64,000 nucleotides of DNA from Bacteroidaceae bacterium (GTDB lineage Bacteria; Bacteroidota; Bacteroidia; Bacteroidales; Bacteroidaceae): contig JAFWBM010000032.1 of assembly GCA_017507105.1 (NCBI GenBank), positions 1 through 64,000 on the forward strand, read 5' to 3'. The notes beneath the pieces were generated by a model. That model saw only the letters and a list, made by a program, of their open reading frames with translations, had not been told where the DNA came from and did no database searches. Below are positions 45,853-54,976 of this stretch, piece after piece; within the stretch, counting starts at the first letter, position 1; every line of letters begins with the position of its first letter. The position numbers and the translations under genes are program-made.

Positions 45853-47001
45853 TCATCTTCTTCCACCACGTGAACCACCACCACGTGAACCACCACTCAT
45901 GCCACCACGAGAACCGCCACTGCGTGAACTCCTATCAAATGAACCTGAAGAATTACGTCGCGTTGAAGAACGATCAACATCGGTGTTTCGTGTACTACTG
46001 GGACGATTGTAGGTCTTATCACTATTCTTGCTTTTAATATTGGAATCCGTTGTAGAACGACGCTGTGATCCATTATTTCTATCCGCTGTAGGACGGCGAC
46101 GCTGCGAACTGCTGTTACCATTCACTGCAGGACGACGCTGCGAACTGCTGTTACCACTCACTGCAGGACGACGCTGTGAACTGCTGTTACCACTCACTGC
46201 AGGACGACGCTGCGAACTGCTGTTACCATTCACTGCAGGACGACGCTGCGAACTGCTGTTACCATTCACTGCAGGACGACGCTGCGAACCATTACTCCTA
46301 TCTACAGTAGTAACATTGCCTCTCACCCTTGAATCGCCACGTCCAACAACTCTACCGCTTCTCATATCTGTCATAGGTGGTATCCTGTTATTACGAAAAC
46401 CAGGAGCTCCAGCTACAAAGTGACCATTATGATGCCAATCCCACCAAGGATGATAATGATGATAGTGATGGTGATAATGCCACCAATCATGATATCCAAA
46501 ATGCCAGCTGCTCCATCCGCCACATAATGAAAAATTCCACGACCAATGGGGATAATGCCATGATGAATAGTAGGAAGGATATAAATCCCAGAATATGCCA
46601 TCGTCATATATTACCCAATTACCCGAGCCGCTTGTATATACAACATCCCAATACCAAGGACTGCTGACAATGACTTTACGCGGACTATGGAAACGAACTA
46701 TTCGCGAAGAATATTCATAGTCTGCATCGTCAATTGACTCGGTTACATATTCTTCGGATTCGGACTCATCATCTATCACATCTTCGTTATACTCATAGTC
46801 GCTTGGCAAGGTTACTCGACGGTTATATACATCGACATCCATATTGTTGACATTATCAATATCGGATCTATAGTTATCACTTACCTCCTTGCTACTCTTT
46901 GCAACCTTATCTTTCTTCTTGGGTACAAAGTACATATCATCATACTGCGCATGTGCACCTGTTGATATGATAAATATAAGCACAAGTATCAGCTGTCTCA
47001 T
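45853..47001 (-). CDS. exported His/Trp-rich protein with Ser-Arg repeats
   Basis: A 382-residue protein with signal peptide (RQLILVLIFIISTGAHAQ). Residues about 25-100 are charged and mostly acidic. Residues about 110-200 are extraordinarily rich in Trp, Tyr and His (WWHYHHHYHHYHPWWDWHH). Residues about 235-300 hold a 12-residue repeat (SSSQRRPAVNGN and variants), and the end is Gly-Arg-Ser (RGGMSGGSRGGGSRGGRR). I do not recognise a family. The His cluster suggests metal binding and the basic tail binding to polyanions; both are guesses. Single gene downstream of the ilv terminator. Confidence 0.75.
   Translation of the reverse strand: MRQLILVLIFIISTGAHAQYDDMYFVPKKKDKVAKSSKEVSDNYRSDIDNVNNMDVDVYNRRVTLPSDYEYNEDVIDDESESEEYVTESIDDADYEYSSRIVRFHSPRKVIVSSPWYWDVVYTSGSGNWVIYDDGIFWDLYPSYYSSWHYPHWSWNFSLCGGWSSWHFGYHDWWHYHHHYHHYHPWWDWHHNGHFVAGAPGFRNNRIPPMTDMRSGRVVGRGDSRVRGNVTTVDRSNGSQRRPAVNGNSSSQRRPAVNGNSSSQRRPAVSGNSSSQRRPAVSGNSSSQRRPAVNGNSSSQRRRPTADRNNGSQRRSTTDSNIKSKNSDKTYNRPSSTRNTDVDRSSTRRNSSGSFDRSSRSGGSRGGMSGGSRGGGSRGGRR
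46100..46279. repeat. five tandem 36-bp repeats inside the His/Trp-rich gene
   Basis: Five 36-bp units starting at 46100, 46136, 46172, 46208 and 46244, differing at one to three positions each (for example Asn/Ser exchange in VNGN/VSGN). Degenerate flanking copies extend either side. Unit length keeps the reading frame. Confidence 0.85.
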
Positions 47002-47148: not shown

Positions 47149-48198
47149 TTATTTCACATCATTTTCGGGACGGAGCTGACGGACAACCTCTGCTGTACGC
47201 CACATCTCGCTCTCGTGAAGGGCCTGCAACTCCTTATTAAGTTTCTCACGATAGTCGGGCTGCGAATTTGAATCTATTGAAATCTGCGCCTCATTACCAC
47301 ATTTTACCGACTCATACAACTTATACATAACAGGCTTTATAGCATCATGGAAAGGAGTCATCCAATCTAGAGCACCACGCTGTGCTGTTGTAGAACAGTT
47401 GGCATACATCCAATCCATACCTTTAGCAGCAAATAGTGGCATAAGAGACTGGGTCAACTCCTCAACAGTCTCGTTGAAAGCCTCAGAGGGGGTATGACCA
47501 TTCTCACGCAACACCTCATACTGTGCCAGCAAAAGTCCCTGTATTGCGCCCATCAATGATCCGCGTTCACCTGTCAAATCCGATACAGCCTCACGTTGGA
47601 ATGTTGTCTCGAACATATATCCTGAACCGATACCTATACCGAACGCAAGAACACGATCCATAGCCTTGCCTGTTGCATCTTGGTATATGGCATATGAAGA
47701 ATTCAAGCCACGACCCTCAAGGAACATTGTACGAAGAGATGTTCCTGAGCCCTTGGGAGCTACCATGATAACATCCACATCTGCAGGAGGAACAATGCCT
47801 GTCCTGTCGTTCCAGTTGATACCGAAACCATGTGAGAAGTATAGAGCTTTGCCTGCTGTCAGATATGGAAGCACCTTAGGCCATACAGCAATCTGAGCTG
47901 CATCAGACAGCAACATACAGATTATTGTACCGCGCTGCGCCGCCTCTTCCAAAGAGAAGAGAGTCTCGCCTGGAACCCATCCATCATTCACCGCTTTGTC
48001 ATAGGTTTTTCCCTCACGTTGTCCAACAATAACATTAAAACCATTATCGCGCAAGTTGCATGCCTGTCCGGGGCCCTGCACACCATATCCCAATACTGCA
48101 ATAGTCTCATTCTTCAAAATCTCACGAGCCTTCTCCAATGAAAACTCCTTGGGAGTAATTACATTCTCTATCACTCCACCAAAATTCATTTCTGCCAT
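47149..48198 (-). CDS. ilvC: ketol-acid reductoisomerase
   Basis: A 349-residue class I enzyme: converts 2-acetolactate and 2-aceto-2-hydroxybutyrate to the dihydroxy acids using NAD(P)H and Mg2+. The dinucleotide motif is GYGVQGPGQACNLRDNG near residue 38; QREGKTYDKA follows where coenzyme preference is set. VAPKGSGTSLRTMFLEGRG and the helical domain (GERGSLMGAIQGLLLAQYEVL, in part) are family features. Last gene of the operon, 56 bp after ilvN. Confidence 0.95.
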   Translation of the reverse strand: MAEMNFGGVIENVITPKEFSLEKAREILKNETIAVLGYGVQGPGQACNLRDNGFNVIVGQREGKTYDKAVNDGWVPGETLFSLEEAAQRGTIICMLLSDAAQIAVWPKVLPYLTAGKALYFSHGFGINWNDRTGIVPPADVDVIMVAPKGSGTSLRTMFLEGRGLNSSYAIYQDATGKAMDRVLAFGIGIGSGYMFETTFQREAVSDLTGERGSLMGAIQGLLLAQYEVLRENGHTPSEAFNETVEELTQSLMPLFAAKGMDWMYANCSTTAQRGALDWMTPFHDAIKPVMYKLYESVKCGNEAQISIDSNSQPDYREKLNKELQALHESEMWRTAEVVRQLRPENDVK

Positions 48199-48254: not shown

Positions 48255-48803
48255 CTATTTCACACGCTTTGCATCCTCATCAAACACATACAGTTGCTCG
48301 CTCAAATGTTCTACCACATCACGGGTAACGGCAATATGTCCCGATTTTACAAATTGTAATACGCACTGCTCGGCTGCAAACTCTTTGTACAGTTTAGTTA
48401 TGGTCTCGGTCTTTCCGGTCTGCTCAACAACCGTATAGGTAGAGTTTATCTCTATCACACGAGCATTATTGTGACGTATAATCTTGGAAATGTGTTTGTT
48501 GGCCAGCAGTTTTGGAGTAGAAATCTTATAAAGCGCAACTTCCTGCACAAATATCTCATCTTCGGTATAATAGCTGGCACGCAATATATCTATTTTCTTC
48601 TCTAGTCTTTTGACAACCTTGTTTATAATCTCTTCATCGCACCACAACGACACTGTATAACGGTGTACATTATCTATAGATGATGATGACACATTAAGTG
48701 TCTCAATATTGAGTTGCCTACGTGTAAATTCAGCTGTAACCTGATTCAGGACACCCGCTAAGTTCTCGGAATAGATGATTACTGTATATAGTTTCTTATC
48801 CAT
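48255..48803 (-). CDS. ilvN: acetolactate synthase regulatory subunit
   Basis: A 182-residue small subunit. The N-terminal ACT domain (TVIIYSENLAGVLNQVTAEFTRRQLNIETLNV, in part) binds valine for feedback control of the catalytic subunit. A second, ferredoxin-like domain follows from about residue 85. Length is close to E. coli IlvH (163) plus a short tail. It follows ilvB by 18 bp. Also called ilvH in some annotations. Confidence 0.92.
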   Translation of the reverse strand: MDKKLYTVIIYSENLAGVLNQVTAEFTRRQLNIETLNVSSSSIDNVHRYTVSLWCDEEIINKVVKRLEKKIDILRASYYTEDEIFVQEVALYKISTPKLLANKHISKIIRHNNARVIEINSTYTVVEQTGKTETITKLYKEFAAEQCVLQFVKSGHIAVTRDVVEHLSEQLYVFDEDAKRVK

Positions 48804-48821: not shown

Positions 48822-50513
48822 TTATTCGAAAATCATATAATCGACAGAGGCACCGGGAGGTGTCATTGGCATGACATTATCCTCCTCTTCTACTGCAACA
48901 TGCAGTAGGAAAGCACCATCGGTTTCAAGCATCTCGTTGATTGCGTCGTCCAGCATACTACGTTCCGTAACAAGACGTGAGGGTATTCCGTATGCAGCAG
49001 CTATCATATTGTAATCGGGATTCAGCATCGGTGTACATGAATAACGATGATTAAAGAAGAGTTCTTGCCATTGTCGTACATTACCTAGATAGTTGTTATT
49101 CAAAAGAATAATCTTCACCGGGACTTTCTGCTCCATTATTGTTCCGAACTCTTGTATATTCATCTGCAAACCACCATCACCCATAAAGGCAAATACAGTC
49201 CTCTCCGGCACTGCTATAGCAGCACCTATTGCTGCCGGCAACCCGTATCCCATTGTTCCCAGGCCACCCGAGGTGAGCACGCTATGAGGTTTGGTAAATT
49301 TAAAATAGCGGCATGACATCATCTGGTTCTGACCAACATCCGTAACCAGAATTGCACTATTATCAGTAGCCTCACTAATTCTCCTTGCAACCTCACCCAT
49401 CTTCAATGGTCCGCTCTTGGGATTAAGTGCCTTGTCAATAACTTTCTCGTACTCAATTCGGTCATACTCTGCAAAGCTGTCTATCCACTCCTTATGCGAT
49501 GCTTCATCAAGTAATTCTGTCAACAACGGCAATGTCTCTTTGCAATCACCAATAACGGGAATATCCACCTTTACGCATTTGTCAATCTCGGAACGGTCTA
49601 TGTCAAGATGTATAATCTTTGCCTGCTTGGCATAGGTTGCCAGGTTTCCGGTTACACGGTCGCTAAATCGCATACCTATGGCTATCAATACATCACATTG
49701 ATTTGTATTCACATTACAGCTAAGGTTGCCATGCATTCCAAGCATACCAACTGTTAGCGGATAGTCACTGGGAAGTGCTGACAGTCCCAACAGTGTTCTT
49801 GCTGCCGGTATATTGCCTTTCTCAAGAAAGGCTTTCAGTTCTTCATGAGCCTCACCCAACTCTACTCCCTGCCCTACGAGAGCCAAGGGACGTTTGGCAC
49901 GATTTATCAGTTCTGCTGCACTGCGTACCGCATCCATATTTGGTTTTGGATATGGCACATAACTACGTATGCTCTCAAAATAGGCAGGTTCATATGCAAC
50001 CTCGGCAACCTGCGCATTCTTTGTAAAGTCCAAGACCACCGGACCCGGGCGTCCTGTCTTTGCTATATAAAATGCACGTGCCACAGCCCAGGCAATATCT
50101 TCGGCTCTACGAATCTGGTAACTCCATTTACTTATAGGCTGTGTCACACCTACAAGGTCAATCTCCTGAAAAGCATCTGTGCCCAATACAGCCGATGATA
50201 CCTGACCAGCTATAACCACTATAGGTGTACTATCAAGTATTGCATCACTTATTCCTGTCAAAGTGTTTGTAGCACCCGGACCGCTTGTAACAATGCACAC
50301 GCCTACCTTACCCGAACTGCGTGCATATCCTTGTGCGGCATGTGCAGCACCTTGTTCATGGCGCACCACCACCTGACGAAAATCCTCACGATGGTCAAAC
50401 ATTGCATCGAAAACCGGCATTATCGAACCACCCGGATAGCCGAAGATTGTATCCACGCCCTCGTTCATGAGTGAGCGCATAAGCGCCTCTGCTCCTGTTA
50501 TTATCTCTTTCAT
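48822..50513 (-). CDS. ilvB: acetolactate synthase large subunit
   Basis: A 563-residue thiamine-diphosphate enzyme joining two pyruvates, or pyruvate and 2-oxobutanoate. The activating glutamate is in RHEQGAAHAAQGYARSSG (near residue 53). The FAD-binding middle region has GMLGMHGNLSCNVNTNQCD. The ThDP/Mg motif runs from GDGGLQMNIQEFGT to LLNNNYLGNVRQWQ. Together with ilvN it starts valine, leucine and isoleucine synthesis; the 2-oxobutanoate comes from ilvA at 28581. Confidence 0.95.
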   Translation of the reverse strand: MKEIITGAEALMRSLMNEGVDTIFGYPGGSIMPVFDAMFDHREDFRQVVVRHEQGAAHAAQGYARSSGKVGVCIVTSGPGATNTLTGISDAILDSTPIVVIAGQVSSAVLGTDAFQEIDLVGVTQPISKWSYQIRRAEDIAWAVARAFYIAKTGRPGPVVLDFTKNAQVAEVAYEPAYFESIRSYVPYPKPNMDAVRSAAELINRAKRPLALVGQGVELGEAHEELKAFLEKGNIPAARTLLGLSALPSDYPLTVGMLGMHGNLSCNVNTNQCDVLIAIGMRFSDRVTGNLATYAKQAKIIHLDIDRSEIDKCVKVDIPVIGDCKETLPLLTELLDEASHKEWIDSFAEYDRIEYEKVIDKALNPKSGPLKMGEVARRISEATDNSAILVTDVGQNQMMSCRYFKFTKPHSVLTSGGLGTMGYGLPAAIGAAIAVPERTVFAFMGDGGLQMNIQEFGTIMEQKVPVKIILLNNNYLGNVRQWQELFFNHRYSCTPMLNPDYNMIAAAYGIPSRLVTERSMLDDAINEMLETDGAFLLHVAVEEEDNVMPMTPPGASVDYMIFE

Positions 50514-50533: not shown

Positions 50534-52336
50534 CTATTCTATTATCCTTACGCCACCTTTATCGGCAGAACTTACCATGTTGGCATATGCCTTAAGACTC
50601 TTTGATACTACACGGTCACGTGTCAATGGGAACATTTCACGTGCCTCCAGCTCCTCATCGCTAAGTTTTACGTTTATAGTGCGGTTTGGTATATCTATCT
50701 CTATAATGTCACCATCACGCAACTTGCCGATATTACCACCTGCAGCTGCTTCGGGCGATATATGTCCTATACTCAATCCCGATGTACCCCCACTGAAGCG
50801 TCCATCTGTAATGAGTGCACACTCCTTACCTAAATGTCGTGACTTTATATATGATGTAGGATAAAGCATCTCCTGCATTCCGGGACCTCCTTTAGGACCT
50901 TCATATACGATGACAACTACATCGCCTGCCTGCACCTTGCCACCAAGGATTCCATCTACGGCTGCATCTTGTGAATCGAACACTTTGGCTTTTCCTGTAA
51001 ACTTCCATATACTGTCATCAACACCGGCGGTCTTTACAACACAACCATCTTTTGCTATGTTTCCAAATAGGATAGCCAATCCTCCATCTTTTGTATAAGC
51101 ATGCTCAAGAGAGCGTATACATCCATTCTCACGGTCACAATCGAGAGTTTCATACATTTCACTTTGCGCACCCATAACATTGCAGAATTTATTGGCCGGA
51201 GCTGTTCCATATATGCGACGTGCCTCATCCCCAATCTCCTCCTTTGTTATGCAATACTTCTCAATATCCTCGGCCAATGTTGCACCATTTACACGTCGCA
51301 ACGAAGTATTAAGTAAATTACCCTTGGCCAATTCACCCATTATACCTATTATACCACCTGCACGACCACAGTCCTGAACGCTGTACTTGGCTGTATTGGG
51401 AGCCAACTTACACAAGCATGGAACCATGCGGCTAAGACGGTCAATATCGGACATTCTAAAGTCAACCCCTGCTTCCTGTGCAACAGCAAGCAGGTGAAGT
51501 ATTGTATTTGTAGAACCACCCATAGCAATATCAAGTGTCATTGCATTTAGGAAAGCATCTCTTACCGCTATACTGCGTGGCAGCACACTATCATCACCCT
51601 CTTCATAATACTTTATAGCATTGGTCACCACCTGCTTTGCTGCATCTTTTAGCAACTGGATACGGTTACTATGTGTAGCAAGTATGGTACCATTACCGGG
51701 AAGTGACAATCCTATAGCTTCGGTAAGTGAGTTCATGGAGTTTGCAGTAAACATACCCGAACAACATCCGCATCCGGGACAAGAACGTCTCTCTATCTGC
51801 TCCAGTTCTTCGTCTCCTACAGTTGTATCTGCAGCCTTTACCATTGCCGAAATAAGATCAAGGTTCTCGCCATTCCATGTTCCTTTCTCCATAGGACCAC
51901 CCGACACGAATACTGTCGGAATATTCAGACGCATTGAAGCCATCAACATTCCCGGAGTTATCTTATCGCAATTAGAGATACACACTAACGCGTCTACCTT
52001 GTGGGCATTACACATATACTCTACACTATCGGCAATAATATCACGAGAAGGCAGCGAGTACAACATTCCATCATGTCCCATTGCAATACCGTCATCAATG
52101 GCAATGGTATTGAACTCGGCAGCATAACAGCCGAGTTTCTCTATCTCGCGTTTTACAATTTGTCCGGCCTCATGCAGATGTGTATGTCCCGGAACCAATT
52201 GAGTAAAAGAGTTTGCAATACCAATTATAGGCTTTCCAAACATCTCACGTTTCATTCCGTTGGCAATCCATAGGGCACGAGCCCCTGCCATACGACGTCC
52301 CTCGGTACACTGTGCGCTTCTTAGTTTTATCTTCAT
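50534..52336 (-). CDS. ilvD: dihydroxy-acid dehydratase
   Basis: A 600-residue Fe-S enzyme removing water from 2,3-dihydroxy acids to give branched 2-oxo acids. Cluster cysteines are in [10 protein letters not shown] and [18 protein letters not shown]. The C-terminal domain carries [23 protein letters not shown] (in part) with the catalytic serine region. It is first in the operon, with an attenuator 68 bases upstream. Length 600 residues is close to E. coli IlvD (616). Confidence 0.95.
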
Positions 52337-52403: not shown

Positions 52404-52437
52404 AAAAAAACGCCCTCCTCATATTATAGAGAAAGGC
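52404..52437 (-). terminator. attenuator terminator in the ilv leader
   Basis: Minus strand GCCTTTCTC (52437-52429) pairs with GAGGAGGGC (52420-52412) over 9 bp (two G-U), then G and seven T. It lies between the leader peptide and ilvD, so it would stop transcription before the operon. Confidence 0.8.
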
Positions 52438-52458
52438 ACCTAACAGTATAGATATACA

Positions 52459-52491
52459 GCCAATCTCATCCCATTTTAACTGACAGGACGA
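52459..52491 (-). promoter_or_regulatory. ilv attenuator pause hairpin and antiterminator segments
   Basis: Segment 1, TCGTCC (52491-52486), lies in the Val-Val-Leu codons of the leader and can pair with GGATGA (52471-52466). Segment 2, GAGATTGGC (52467-52459), overlaps the leader stop and can pair with the terminator's left arm GCCTTTCTC in 7 of 9 positions. The 1-2 and 2-3 pairings exclude each other, and 2-3 excludes the terminator. Confidence 0.7.
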
Positions 52492-52534
52492 CAATAATAT
52501 TATTAATGACTTGACTGTTGTATTTTAAATGCAT
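52466..52534 (-). CDS. ilv operon leader peptide
   Basis: A 22-codon frame, ATG at 52534 to TGA at 52466, starting about 18 bases after the predicted transcription start. Its second half reads Val-Ile-Asn-Asn-Ile-Ile-Val-Val-Leu-Ser-Val, so 8 of 11 residues are branched-chain. That is the composition expected of an ilv/leu leader whose translation senses charged tRNA-Ile, -Val and -Leu. No Shine-Dalgarno is visible, which is normal here. Confidence 0.75.
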   Translation of the reverse strand: MHLKYNSQVINNIIVVLSVKMG

Positions 52535-52550
52535 AAAATATCTTTTTCTA

Positions 52551-52589
52551 ACTGCTGCGAATTTAATGCTTTTTTCTAAGTAGAGCAAA
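52551..52589 (-). promoter_or_regulatory. promoter of the ilv operon
   Basis: Minus strand TTTG (52589-52586), 20-bp spacer, TAAATTCG (52565-52558). Start of transcription near 52552. The remaining sequence to 52796 is AT-rich without a gene. Confidence 0.65.
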
Positions 52590-52796: not shown

Positions 52797-53294
52797 CTAA
52801 TCGAAATCCAACATTGAATTTAGAATAGAGTTTTCACTCTCTATCTCAACAAAGCCACAAGTATCGTTACCAATAATTATGAAAAGCAGTTTTATATCCT
52901 CACTCCTCTTCATTACATACACCTTGAAGTCGGTTTTATCCTTGCCTATACGAAAGAGACTTTCATAACCATCTGGAATCGCCTTATCTATTTGCTTTTT
53001 AAACGACAACTTCACCTCTTCCTCACATTCGCTAAGGATAAGAGCTCTAGCCTCCTTAATTCCTTTACTATTCAGTTCTGCAACAAGTTCGGCAATGGCA
53101 TCTTCCTTCTTCCCTCCACACTCTGTCTCTACATCAAAGTATCCGGCCCTCTCCAGTTTATCCATCTCCTTCATTGAAGAGATAAATACGGCACCGCTCT
53201 TATCTTTGTATCTATCTCCCAGTTTATTCAATCCATCCGCTTTTGTAATCATTGCCATAGCAACGATAAACAACATTATAAATATTCTTTTCAT
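52797..53294 (-). CDS. DUF4252 family exported protein
   Basis: A 165-residue protein from the ATG at 53294, which opens a signal peptide (KRIFIMLFIVAMAMITKADG); ten extra codons upstream are less likely. The mature part, LGDRYKDKSGAVFISSMKEMDKLERAGYF (in part), then LFRIGKDKTDFKVYVMKRSEDIKLLFIIIGND, fits DUF4252, a Bacteroidota family of unproven role. It is last in the PadR-PspC-PspC unit, 26 bp after the second PspC gene. Confidence 0.78.
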   Translation of the reverse strand: MKRIFIMLFIVAMAMITKADGLNKLGDRYKDKSGAVFISSMKEMDKLERAGYFDVETECGGKKEDAIAELVAELNSKGIKEARALILSECEEEVKLSFKKQIDKAIPDGYESLFRIGKDKTDFKVYVMKRSEDIKLLFIIIGNDTCGFVEIESENSILNSMLDFD

Positions 53295-53320
53295 AGCAGA
53301 AGAGTTAAACAAGCATAACA

Positions 53321-54976
53321 TCACTCATCATTCCCACATGTATCAACGTCAAATATTTCATGCCCATCAGAAAAAAAATTACCTTTATACGAATAATGTT
53401 GTGCAACGGGAGTAACATACACTCCATCTATAGTATCATTACCAAATATGTACATAGCGGGAAGTGCATTTTTTAATATACATATCTTGAAAGGAATCTT
53501 ACCCATCTCCAAAGCATTGGAATAACTTATACTATCGCCTGGATTTATATAACGAACCTCTTTATCTTTAGAGTAAATACTCATGTTACCCACATCACTA
53601 TTATCTACAAGTATTTCACTTGCTATGCTATCCCAAACAAAACAGAGAGCGCCTTCTTTGGCAAAGAATGCTACTTCTATATTCGCAAAAGAGTCATCAT
53701 CACAACCGTTTCCATCACTCACATCGCGAACAGCAGATGGTTCATAGAATCTGAGTATAACCTTATCCTCAAGATTATAGCGTATCATCTGCACTGTAAA
53801 TGGCAAATTACCGTTTCCATCTCCCCACGCAACATATTGATGCGACTCGATAGCCGATACATTCTCTTCAATCAGCTGTTCCCAAAACTTTTCGTCAAAG
53901 AAACGTCTGTCATCAACAATCTCTTCAACAATAGATTCCCATCCACCATTTGCCTCTACCCTATTATGAATATTATAGCATACTATTCCCAATGTTGCTA
54001 ACCAACCCAATACAAATGCAATCTTAACATATCGATTGAGAGGAGAACAGACATTGCACTTCTTCAATATCCAATGTATAAGCGCAAACAGAGGCAGCAG
54101 TAACAGTATCAACACATATACATTTTCAAATAATGCAACCCCAAAGACTGTAACTAACACAAAGAAAAGTATTGCTAAAACAAATAGTAACAAGAGAAAT
54201 GCAAAAAACAATGGAAAAGATATTATTGCCAACATAACAAAGAAGATTATCTTCACAGCGGAAGCAAGACAACCACTGCTCTTAGGATATGTAAGCTCCC
54301 CCAAAGCCAACTCATAATTATCTTTCCATGCAGTCTCGACATCTGCACCGTCATTGAAAGACAACTTGCGCATACGTGTAAGATCTATAATATTACACGC
54401 CTTCGGCAGCACCAACCAAAGGAGAGCATAGGCAAGAATCAGAAAAAGAGAACCTCCAAAAGAGAGACCCAAAAGAAATATAAGCATTACAATGAGACGG
54501 GAAATGCCTATACTCCATCCGTTATATTTTGCCAAGCCCGATATGACGCCACCCAAAAGTTTATCATTTGGGTCACGATACAGTTTGTTTCCAAGTCTCA
54601 TGGCTATACGCCATTGAGAACTTCTGCTATTCTCCGAGCCTTTGTCATATTGTTCTCCTTTTATCCCTGGTCCGGGACAAGCCACTCCTTCTGAATCATT
54701 ATCCTCACTATCGAAAGGAGCATCGGAAAGTTCCAAAGGCAATTCAACTTCGTTCAAGATACTTCTTATAAGTTGTATGGTGACAATCGAATCGCTACCT
54801 ACACGCTCTTGCAACATAGAGGCAATCTTTTTCTCATATTCGCCACCTTTGGTCTCATCCCCTTCACCTCTGTAATATTCGGTAACTTTAGAAATATACC
54901 TTTCTACAAGTTCAAGAGCATCTTCATCAAAACAATAGATGCGACCATTCATATTGATATTTACCGACTTTTTCAT
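53321..54976 (-). CDS. large PspC-domain membrane protein
   Basis: A 551-residue protein from the ATG at 54976, giving the same N-terminus as the neighbour (KKSVNINMNGRIYCFDEDALELVERY). Residues about 1-75 are this shared cytosolic domain. A polar linker follows, then a PspC domain at about 127-190 (KLYRDPNDKLLGGVISGLAKYNGW and a helix pair), more membrane helices (residues about 230-320), and a 210-residue extracytoplasmic C-terminal domain (NRVEANGGWESIVEEIVDD to DTCGNDE). PspC takes part in envelope-stress response in proteobacteria. This gene and the next likely arose by duplication. Confidence 0.82.
   Translation of the reverse strand: MKKSVNINMNGRIYCFDEDALELVERYISKVTEYYRGEGDETKGGEYEKKIASMLQERVGSDSIVTIQLIRSILNEVELPLELSDAPFDSEDNDSEGVACPGPGIKGEQYDKGSENSRSSQWRIAMRLGNKLYRDPNDKLLGGVISGLAKYNGWSIGISRLIVMLIFLLGLSFGGSLFLILAYALLWLVLPKACNIIDLTRMRKLSFNDGADVETAWKDNYELALGELTYPKSSGCLASAVKIIFFVMLAIISFPLFFAFLLLLFVLAILFFVLVTVFGVALFENVYVLILLLLPLFALIHWILKKCNVCSPLNRYVKIAFVLGWLATLGIVCYNIHNRVEANGGWESIVEEIVDDRRFFDEKFWEQLIEENVSAIESHQYVAWGDGNGNLPFTVQMIRYNLEDKVILRFYEPSAVRDVSDGNGCDDDSFANIEVAFFAKEGALCFVWDSIASEILVDNSDVGNMSIYSKDKEVRYINPGDSISYSNALEMGKIPFKICILKNALPAMYIFGNDTIDGVYVTPVAQHYSYKGNFFSDGHEIFDVDTCGNDE

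Follow-up and report, generated by a model that had tools for sequence, protein, structure and literature searches.

The window analysed here, a whole stretch of 64,000 nucleotides belonging to a genome of 2.1 Mb from the order Bacteroidales, as the first-pass annotation states, and probably from the family Bacteroidaceae, carries on its minus strand four genes for the synthesis of branched-chain amino acids, ilvD, ilvB, ilvN and ilvC. Each of them passed the NCBIfam equivalog cut-off, on which the gene names are based, in agreement with the operon ilvD-ilvB-ilvN-ilvC that the first-pass annotation had named. The leader ahead of the operon is filled with codons for Ile, Val and Leu, which the operon itself makes. 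The genes and the parts of the upstream element are as follows:

50534-52336, minus strand: ilvD, dihydroxy-acid dehydratase (TIGR00110, 773 bits, over cut-off)
48822-50513, minus strand: ilvB, acetolactate synthase large subunit (TIGR00118, 680 bits, over cut-off)
48255-48803, minus strand: ilvN, acetolactate synthase small subunit (TIGR00119, 85 bits, over cut-off)
47149-48198, minus strand: ilvC, ketol-acid reductoisomerase (TIGR00465, 316 bits, over cut-off)
52558-52588, minus strand: promoter of the sigma-ABfr type, TTG at 52588-52586, a 20-nt spacer and TAAATTCG at 52565-52558
52466-52534, minus strand: leader peptide ORF MHLKYNSQVINNIIVVLSVKMG with its stop codon, 22 codons, Ile, Leu or Val at 9 of 22 residues, found at the same position in relatives
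52511-52518, minus strand: segment 0, ACAGTCAA (codons 6-8), in the minimum-energy fold the outer 5' arm of the anti-antiterminator, partner 52463-52456
52485-52491, minus strand: segment 1, TCGTCCT, located within the codons for Val-Val-Leu and forming the inner 5' arm of the anti-antiterminator, partner 52472-52466
52456-52468, minus strand: segment 2 (S2), antiterminator 5' arm GAGATTGGC at 52467-52459, with 2' reaching 52456
52429-52437, minus strand: segment 3 (S3), GCCTTTCTC, antiterminator 3' arm and terminator 5' arm
52404-52420, minus strand: segment 4 (S4), GAGGAGGGC at 52420-52412, then G, then seven T at 52410-52404, terminator 3' arm and U tract

Read 5' to 3' on the minus strand, the promoter is followed by the leader ORF, S2, S3, S4, the T tract and finally ilvD at 52336, so that an intrinsic terminator sits between the leader and the first gene. 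The promoter has one mismatch to the TAnnTTTG -7/TTTG -33 consensus (as quoted in PMC7366714), and the leader ATG lies 24 nt past the -7 box. S2 overlaps the leader stop codon (TGA, 52468-52466) and pairs with S3 in an antiterminator (52467-52459 with 52437-52429) that contains two central U-U mismatches; S2 and S4 are near-copies, in which GAGAAAGG occurs twice. The coordinates given by the first-pass annotation are correct to the base on this strand, and its promoter, its 22-codon leader with Ile, Val and Leu codons, its antiterminator and its seven-T terminator (arms 52437-52429 and 52420-52412) are all found as described. The pause hairpin that it had drawn, TCGTCC (52491-52486) with GGATGA (52471-52466), is also present, but six pairs are too short, as one more U-G pair belongs to it, and the helix turns out to be the inner part of a longer anti-antiterminator, to which an outer helix from earlier leader codons is here added: the fold of the free window RNA also pairs 52518-52511 with 52463-52456.

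Taken by itself, the window RNA starting at 52552 is much more stable than shuffled RNA (fold z = -3.6; none of 200 shuffles matched it), a leader ORF with equal Ile/Leu/Val content was obtained in 57 of 5000 shuffles, and three terminator-like sites were counted within 2 kb around the element (0.9 expected). The antiterminator duplex alone is borderline (p ~0.08), and it becomes convincing because relatives were compared. Two other ORFs of the region may be mentioned, one of 175 aa (52797-53324) upstream of the ilv promoter, without an NCBIfam match, and one at 45853-47001, whose C-terminal part carries tandem Ser-Ser-Gln-Arg-Arg-Pro-Ala-Val repeats.

The comparison took in the regions upstream of ilvD in the genus (43 congeners) and in some 95 further genomes of the order Bacteroidales. 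A terminator was found in 112 of these regions, 68 of which also hold a leader ORF by a strict criterion (at least 45% Ile/Leu/Val and at least 8 such residues), against 2.6 expected from shuffles; raising the threshold to 50% and 9 residues left 55 leaders against 0.8 expected. A lax criterion gave 91 leader calls, some of which are spurious (G033, G143), with 19 of 112 expected by chance in AT-rich DNA. The counts are lower bounds, because the terminator finder chose the wrong hairpin in some genomes (e.g., G321, G002b, G332), which were thus missed or mis-scored. Upstream of the leader, the phylum-type promoter motif TTG-N17-22-TAnnTT[TC]G occurs within 85 nt in 67 of the 91 cases (0.6 expected). 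Ile, Leu and Val make up 55% of the 1831 leader residues, and apart from this content the peptides vary freely, as may be seen in the recurrent but widely different leaders MKQLVNNIVKVLLVVVCE, MTNCFLHILLVIDILLVGQNK, MKNLLNIVLVVVVVISEMK and MMLNSIHILILIVVIIIVMQR. Cultured carriers include Phocaeicola faecalis, Odoribacter laneus and Bacteroides graminisolvens DSM 19988, the last with the leader MITSTSINLSLLDIISVVVVPSRA, closed by a stop codon, plus a terminator (L155). The same scan found the element absent from the ilvD homologues of Desulfobulbaceae and Spirochaetes.

The arms of the hairpins change together. The cores of S2, S3 and S4 occur in 53 different combinations in 78 genomes, and compensatory pairs are found in both 2:3 and 3:4 across many families, single columns running through A-U, U-A, C-G and G-C (for example, A-U 34, U-A 11, C-G 3 and G-C 2 in one column). 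Representative arm pairs are ATCGGTATG with ATGCCGATT (G046), GAACTTTCCGGG with CCCGGAAA (G144) and AGCCCTCC with GGAGGGCT (G054). Since these cores had been picked for their complementarity, an unbiased comparison of own and foreign S2 regions was added, in which the own S2 region beats 95% of the S2 regions of other families in 15 of 34 genomes with divergent S3 (1.7 expected). The compensatory changes and the own-versus-foreign test both indicate that the antiterminator shares the arm S3 with the terminator.

The leader codons themselves are part of this pairing. A synonymous-codon test of the inner helix 1:2 over 78 genomes gave a mean mid-p of 0.264, whereas each of the two controls, a reversed target and S3 as target, gave 0.515; complementarity between the leader codons and S2 goes further than the encoded peptide demands. 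In the outer helix, early leader codons (often TTA CAT ATT, Leu-His-Ile) pair with a stretch just 3' of S2 (often TATGTA), most clearly in G271 (ATTATCGTGAAC with GTTTACGATAAT). Own leaders surpass foreign ones in this 0:2' pairing with p = 3e-7 over 30 families, and in the synonymous test the mean was 0.278, compared with 0.472 when the target was reversed. His is present in codons 2-12 of 38 of the 78 leaders, and the pattern [LIV]H[ILV] in 28 of 78; this recurrent, non-regulatory His is probably due to the RNA pairing of the outer helix. Across the order the regulatory codons form one arm of the anti-antiterminator, a result carried by the set of genomes and not by the window alone, where the outer helix joins 52518-52511 to 52463-52456 and the synonymous tests are not significant (p 0.12 for 1:2 and 0.64 for 0:2').

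Comparison with relatives strongly supports an attenuation mechanism of the classic ilv type, as the first-pass annotation had suggested, and the element very probably serves the ilvDBNC operon as a ribosome-mediated transcription attenuator (probability about 0.92, as judged from sequence). A structured leader with a terminator ahead of biosynthetic genes would also suit a metabolite-binding riboswitch or a T-box that works the terminator while the ORF is incidental, but an Rfam search of the window and of 11 relatives, which took in leaderless congeners, gave no family at the gathering score. What is conserved, moreover, is the Ile/Leu/Val coding content and the complementarity of the arms, the stop codon is locked to S2, and the arm sequences drift between families while their complementarity stays, unlike a ligand pocket. 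A T-box or another Rfam cis-regulatory RNA was thus rejected for want of a covariance-model match and for this drift, and riboswitch-type control is regarded as very unlikely.

Somewhat less improbable, though still poorly compatible with the data, is a terminator that is constitutive or serves an sRNA, the leader ORF being a chance product of AT-rich DNA or a small protein with a job of its own. The chance frequency of lax Ile/Leu/Val-rich ORFs (19 of 112) and the congeners that have the terminator but no leader speak in its favor; the excess of leaders at the stricter criterion (68 against 2.6), the free variation of the peptides beyond their Ile/Leu/Val content and a codon choice that serves RNA pairing speak against it. 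The least probable alternative is that translation of the leader governs Rho access or the translation of ilvD, and not intrinsic termination, given the strong stem and U tract that lie ahead of ilvD and coevolve with S2.

Ribosome-mediated attenuation would link translation of the leader, termination and a response to starvation as follows. In the free leader RNA, the folding suggests that the leader codons fold onto S2 (inner 1:2, outer 0:2'), leaving S3 to pair with S4, and transcription would stop. When Ile-, Val- and Leu-tRNA are all charged, the ribosome would reach the stop codon at S2 and cover S2, and S3-S4 would terminate transcription. When one charged tRNA is short, the ribosome would stall in the Ile/Val/Leu codons and break both 0:2' and 1:2; the S2 so freed would capture S3, and the polymerase would read on into ilvD. 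Order-wide, S2 starts mostly at -4 to +7 nt from the leader stop codon, and this offset distribution, together with the constrained folding described below, places the stop codon where a terminating ribosome would mask S2.

The scheme was modelled by constrained folding of the RNA up to just before S4, with an assumed ribosome footprint masked from -15 to +13 of the A site, equilibrium folding being a rough guide to what is a kinetic process. Averaged over 78 genomes, the probability of S2:S3 pairing is 0.36 without a ribosome, 0.01 with a ribosome on the stop codon and about 0.58-0.74 with a ribosome on the Ile/Leu/Val codons (0.58 for a single ribosome, 0.70 with trailing ribosomes masking the upstream RNA). 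The free RNA clearly sequesters S2 in 42 of the 78 genomes and does not clearly do so in about half. For the window the corresponding values are 0.00 without a ribosome and 0.49 for a single ribosome at Ile13; at Val15, Val16 and Leu17 the probability drops to 0.02 or less, because segment 0 is free to re-pair with S2, so the model works for this RNA only if the ribosome stalls at Ile13 or if others trail behind it, the mean in the latter case being 0.61. These folding results suggest that termination is the default without translation and that stalling would open the operon, most effectively when ribosomes queue or when the stall is at the Ile pair.

Conservation of the leader frame and of the hairpin arms in relatives had been proposed as a check of the mechanism. 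Both are kept order-wide, with compensatory changes, but the leader is lost in one part of the genus: on the ilvD tree, about 17 members of a congeneric subclade of 21 rows are without a recognisable leader, most of them with the terminator retained, while G005, G029 and G035 of the same subclade keep the leader, and leader presence and absence needs several changes on this tree. Four of these leaderless members, G003 (L027), G033 (L028), G011 (L029) and G022 (L030), keep the terminator, and the leader is replaced by a common hairpin that lies some 110 nt ahead of ilvD and consists of GTTCGG..CCGAAAC enclosing an inner stem. This hairpin has no Rfam match in the four genomes; it was considered as a new element and set aside, consensus folding having given only two compensatory pairs, which is too few. 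Further leaderless congeners of the same subclade are G030 (L021), G004 (L026), G019 (L020), G025 (L015), G023 (L019) and G021 (L022). As side observations, G004 and G025 have, close to where the transcript presumably starts, a stretch resembling GAAAGG or GAGAAA that could pair with the 5' arm of the terminator with no ORF involved, and the upstream neighbour differs in the leaderless subclade, where by eye it is the end of a putative BtuC/FecCD-like permease.

Ribosome-mediated attenuation is a textbook mechanism, and E. coli ilvGMEDA and ilvBN are governed by leader-peptide attenuators. The Bacteroidales element resembles them in its Ile/Leu/Val-rich leader peptide ahead of a branched-chain biosynthetic operon, in the mutually exclusive antiterminator and terminator and in the regulatory codons within the anti-antiterminator arm; it differs from them in a shorter leader (~15-32 codons), a phylum-type promoter, an S2 that starts at the leader stop codon and the near-identity of S2 and S4. 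Candidates in Bacteroidetes/Chlorobi are reportedly contained in the comparative genomics of amino-acid attenuators by Vitreschak et al. of 2004, which was outside the coverage of our literature search; within that coverage no paper on a Bacteroidales ilv leader was found. Closest to the present case, transcriptomics of Flavobacterium psychrophilum gave strong clues to leader-peptide attenuation upstream of amino-acid operons (PMC9723704), that is, the same proposed mechanism at amino-acid biosynthesis operons in the same phylum; that organism belongs to another class, the main text of the report does not name ilv, and its relevant passages give no comparative test. Leader-peptide-like sORFs in long 5' UTRs are known in B. 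thetaiotaomicron (PMC7366714), and leader-peptide control of branched-chain operons has been described in other phyla, for ilvBNC of Corynebacterium (PMC11857589) and ilv of Staphylococcus (PMC5794164).

The mechanism is thus well known elsewhere and reported in the phylum, and the Bacteroidales element widens its range and adds no new kind. Only the outer helix and the leader losses may be new. It seems doubtful that the ilv attenuators of Bacteroidales form an architectural variant of their own. Such a variant would have an anti-antiterminator of two storeys, the early leader codons, held as Leu-His-Ile by the needs of RNA pairing, clamping the bases just 3' of S2 and the Ile/Val/Leu codons clamping S2 itself, and one congeneric subclade would have swapped the leader peptide for peptide-free RNA control by a conserved hairpin before the same terminator. 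Bacteroidales are a dominant gut order, and to our knowledge the regulation of their amino-acid synthesis has been little studied. A conserved leader-peptide attenuator in at least 30 families would imply ribosome-coupled termination in Bacteroidales as in enterobacteria, and such termination is testable in the phylum because it requires close coupling of transcription and translation. The element also adds small ORFs that are missing from annotation and, in a single genus, a series of natural losses.

Other amino-acid operons, examined through family searches, are preceded by leaders of this type in relatives, with a terminator-like hairpin behind each leader: for his, MKRTVLHHHHHHYNGQ, MIYTTTHHHHSPDE and, in the congener G008, MKIMRTHHRHHHIPFIK (hisG loci L229, L228 and L231); for trp, MRTILVNTYWWWHSVQLTRS (trpE, L248); and for leu, MNQMFIHILLSGIIILLSRVSGSGCCA (leuA, L239), all ending at a stop codon. 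Attenuation therefore looks general in the order Bacteroidales. Anthranilate synthase component I (PF04715), present in G194 and G137, was not found in the whole but incomplete assemblies of the congeners G000, G008 and G009, so tryptophan auxotrophy is only a possibility for these three. The window's own genome has a weak hisG leader, MNQQIHSRFHLDHS with its stop codon (L230:1214-1258, by eye), which contains only three His, and this attenuator may thus be decaying.
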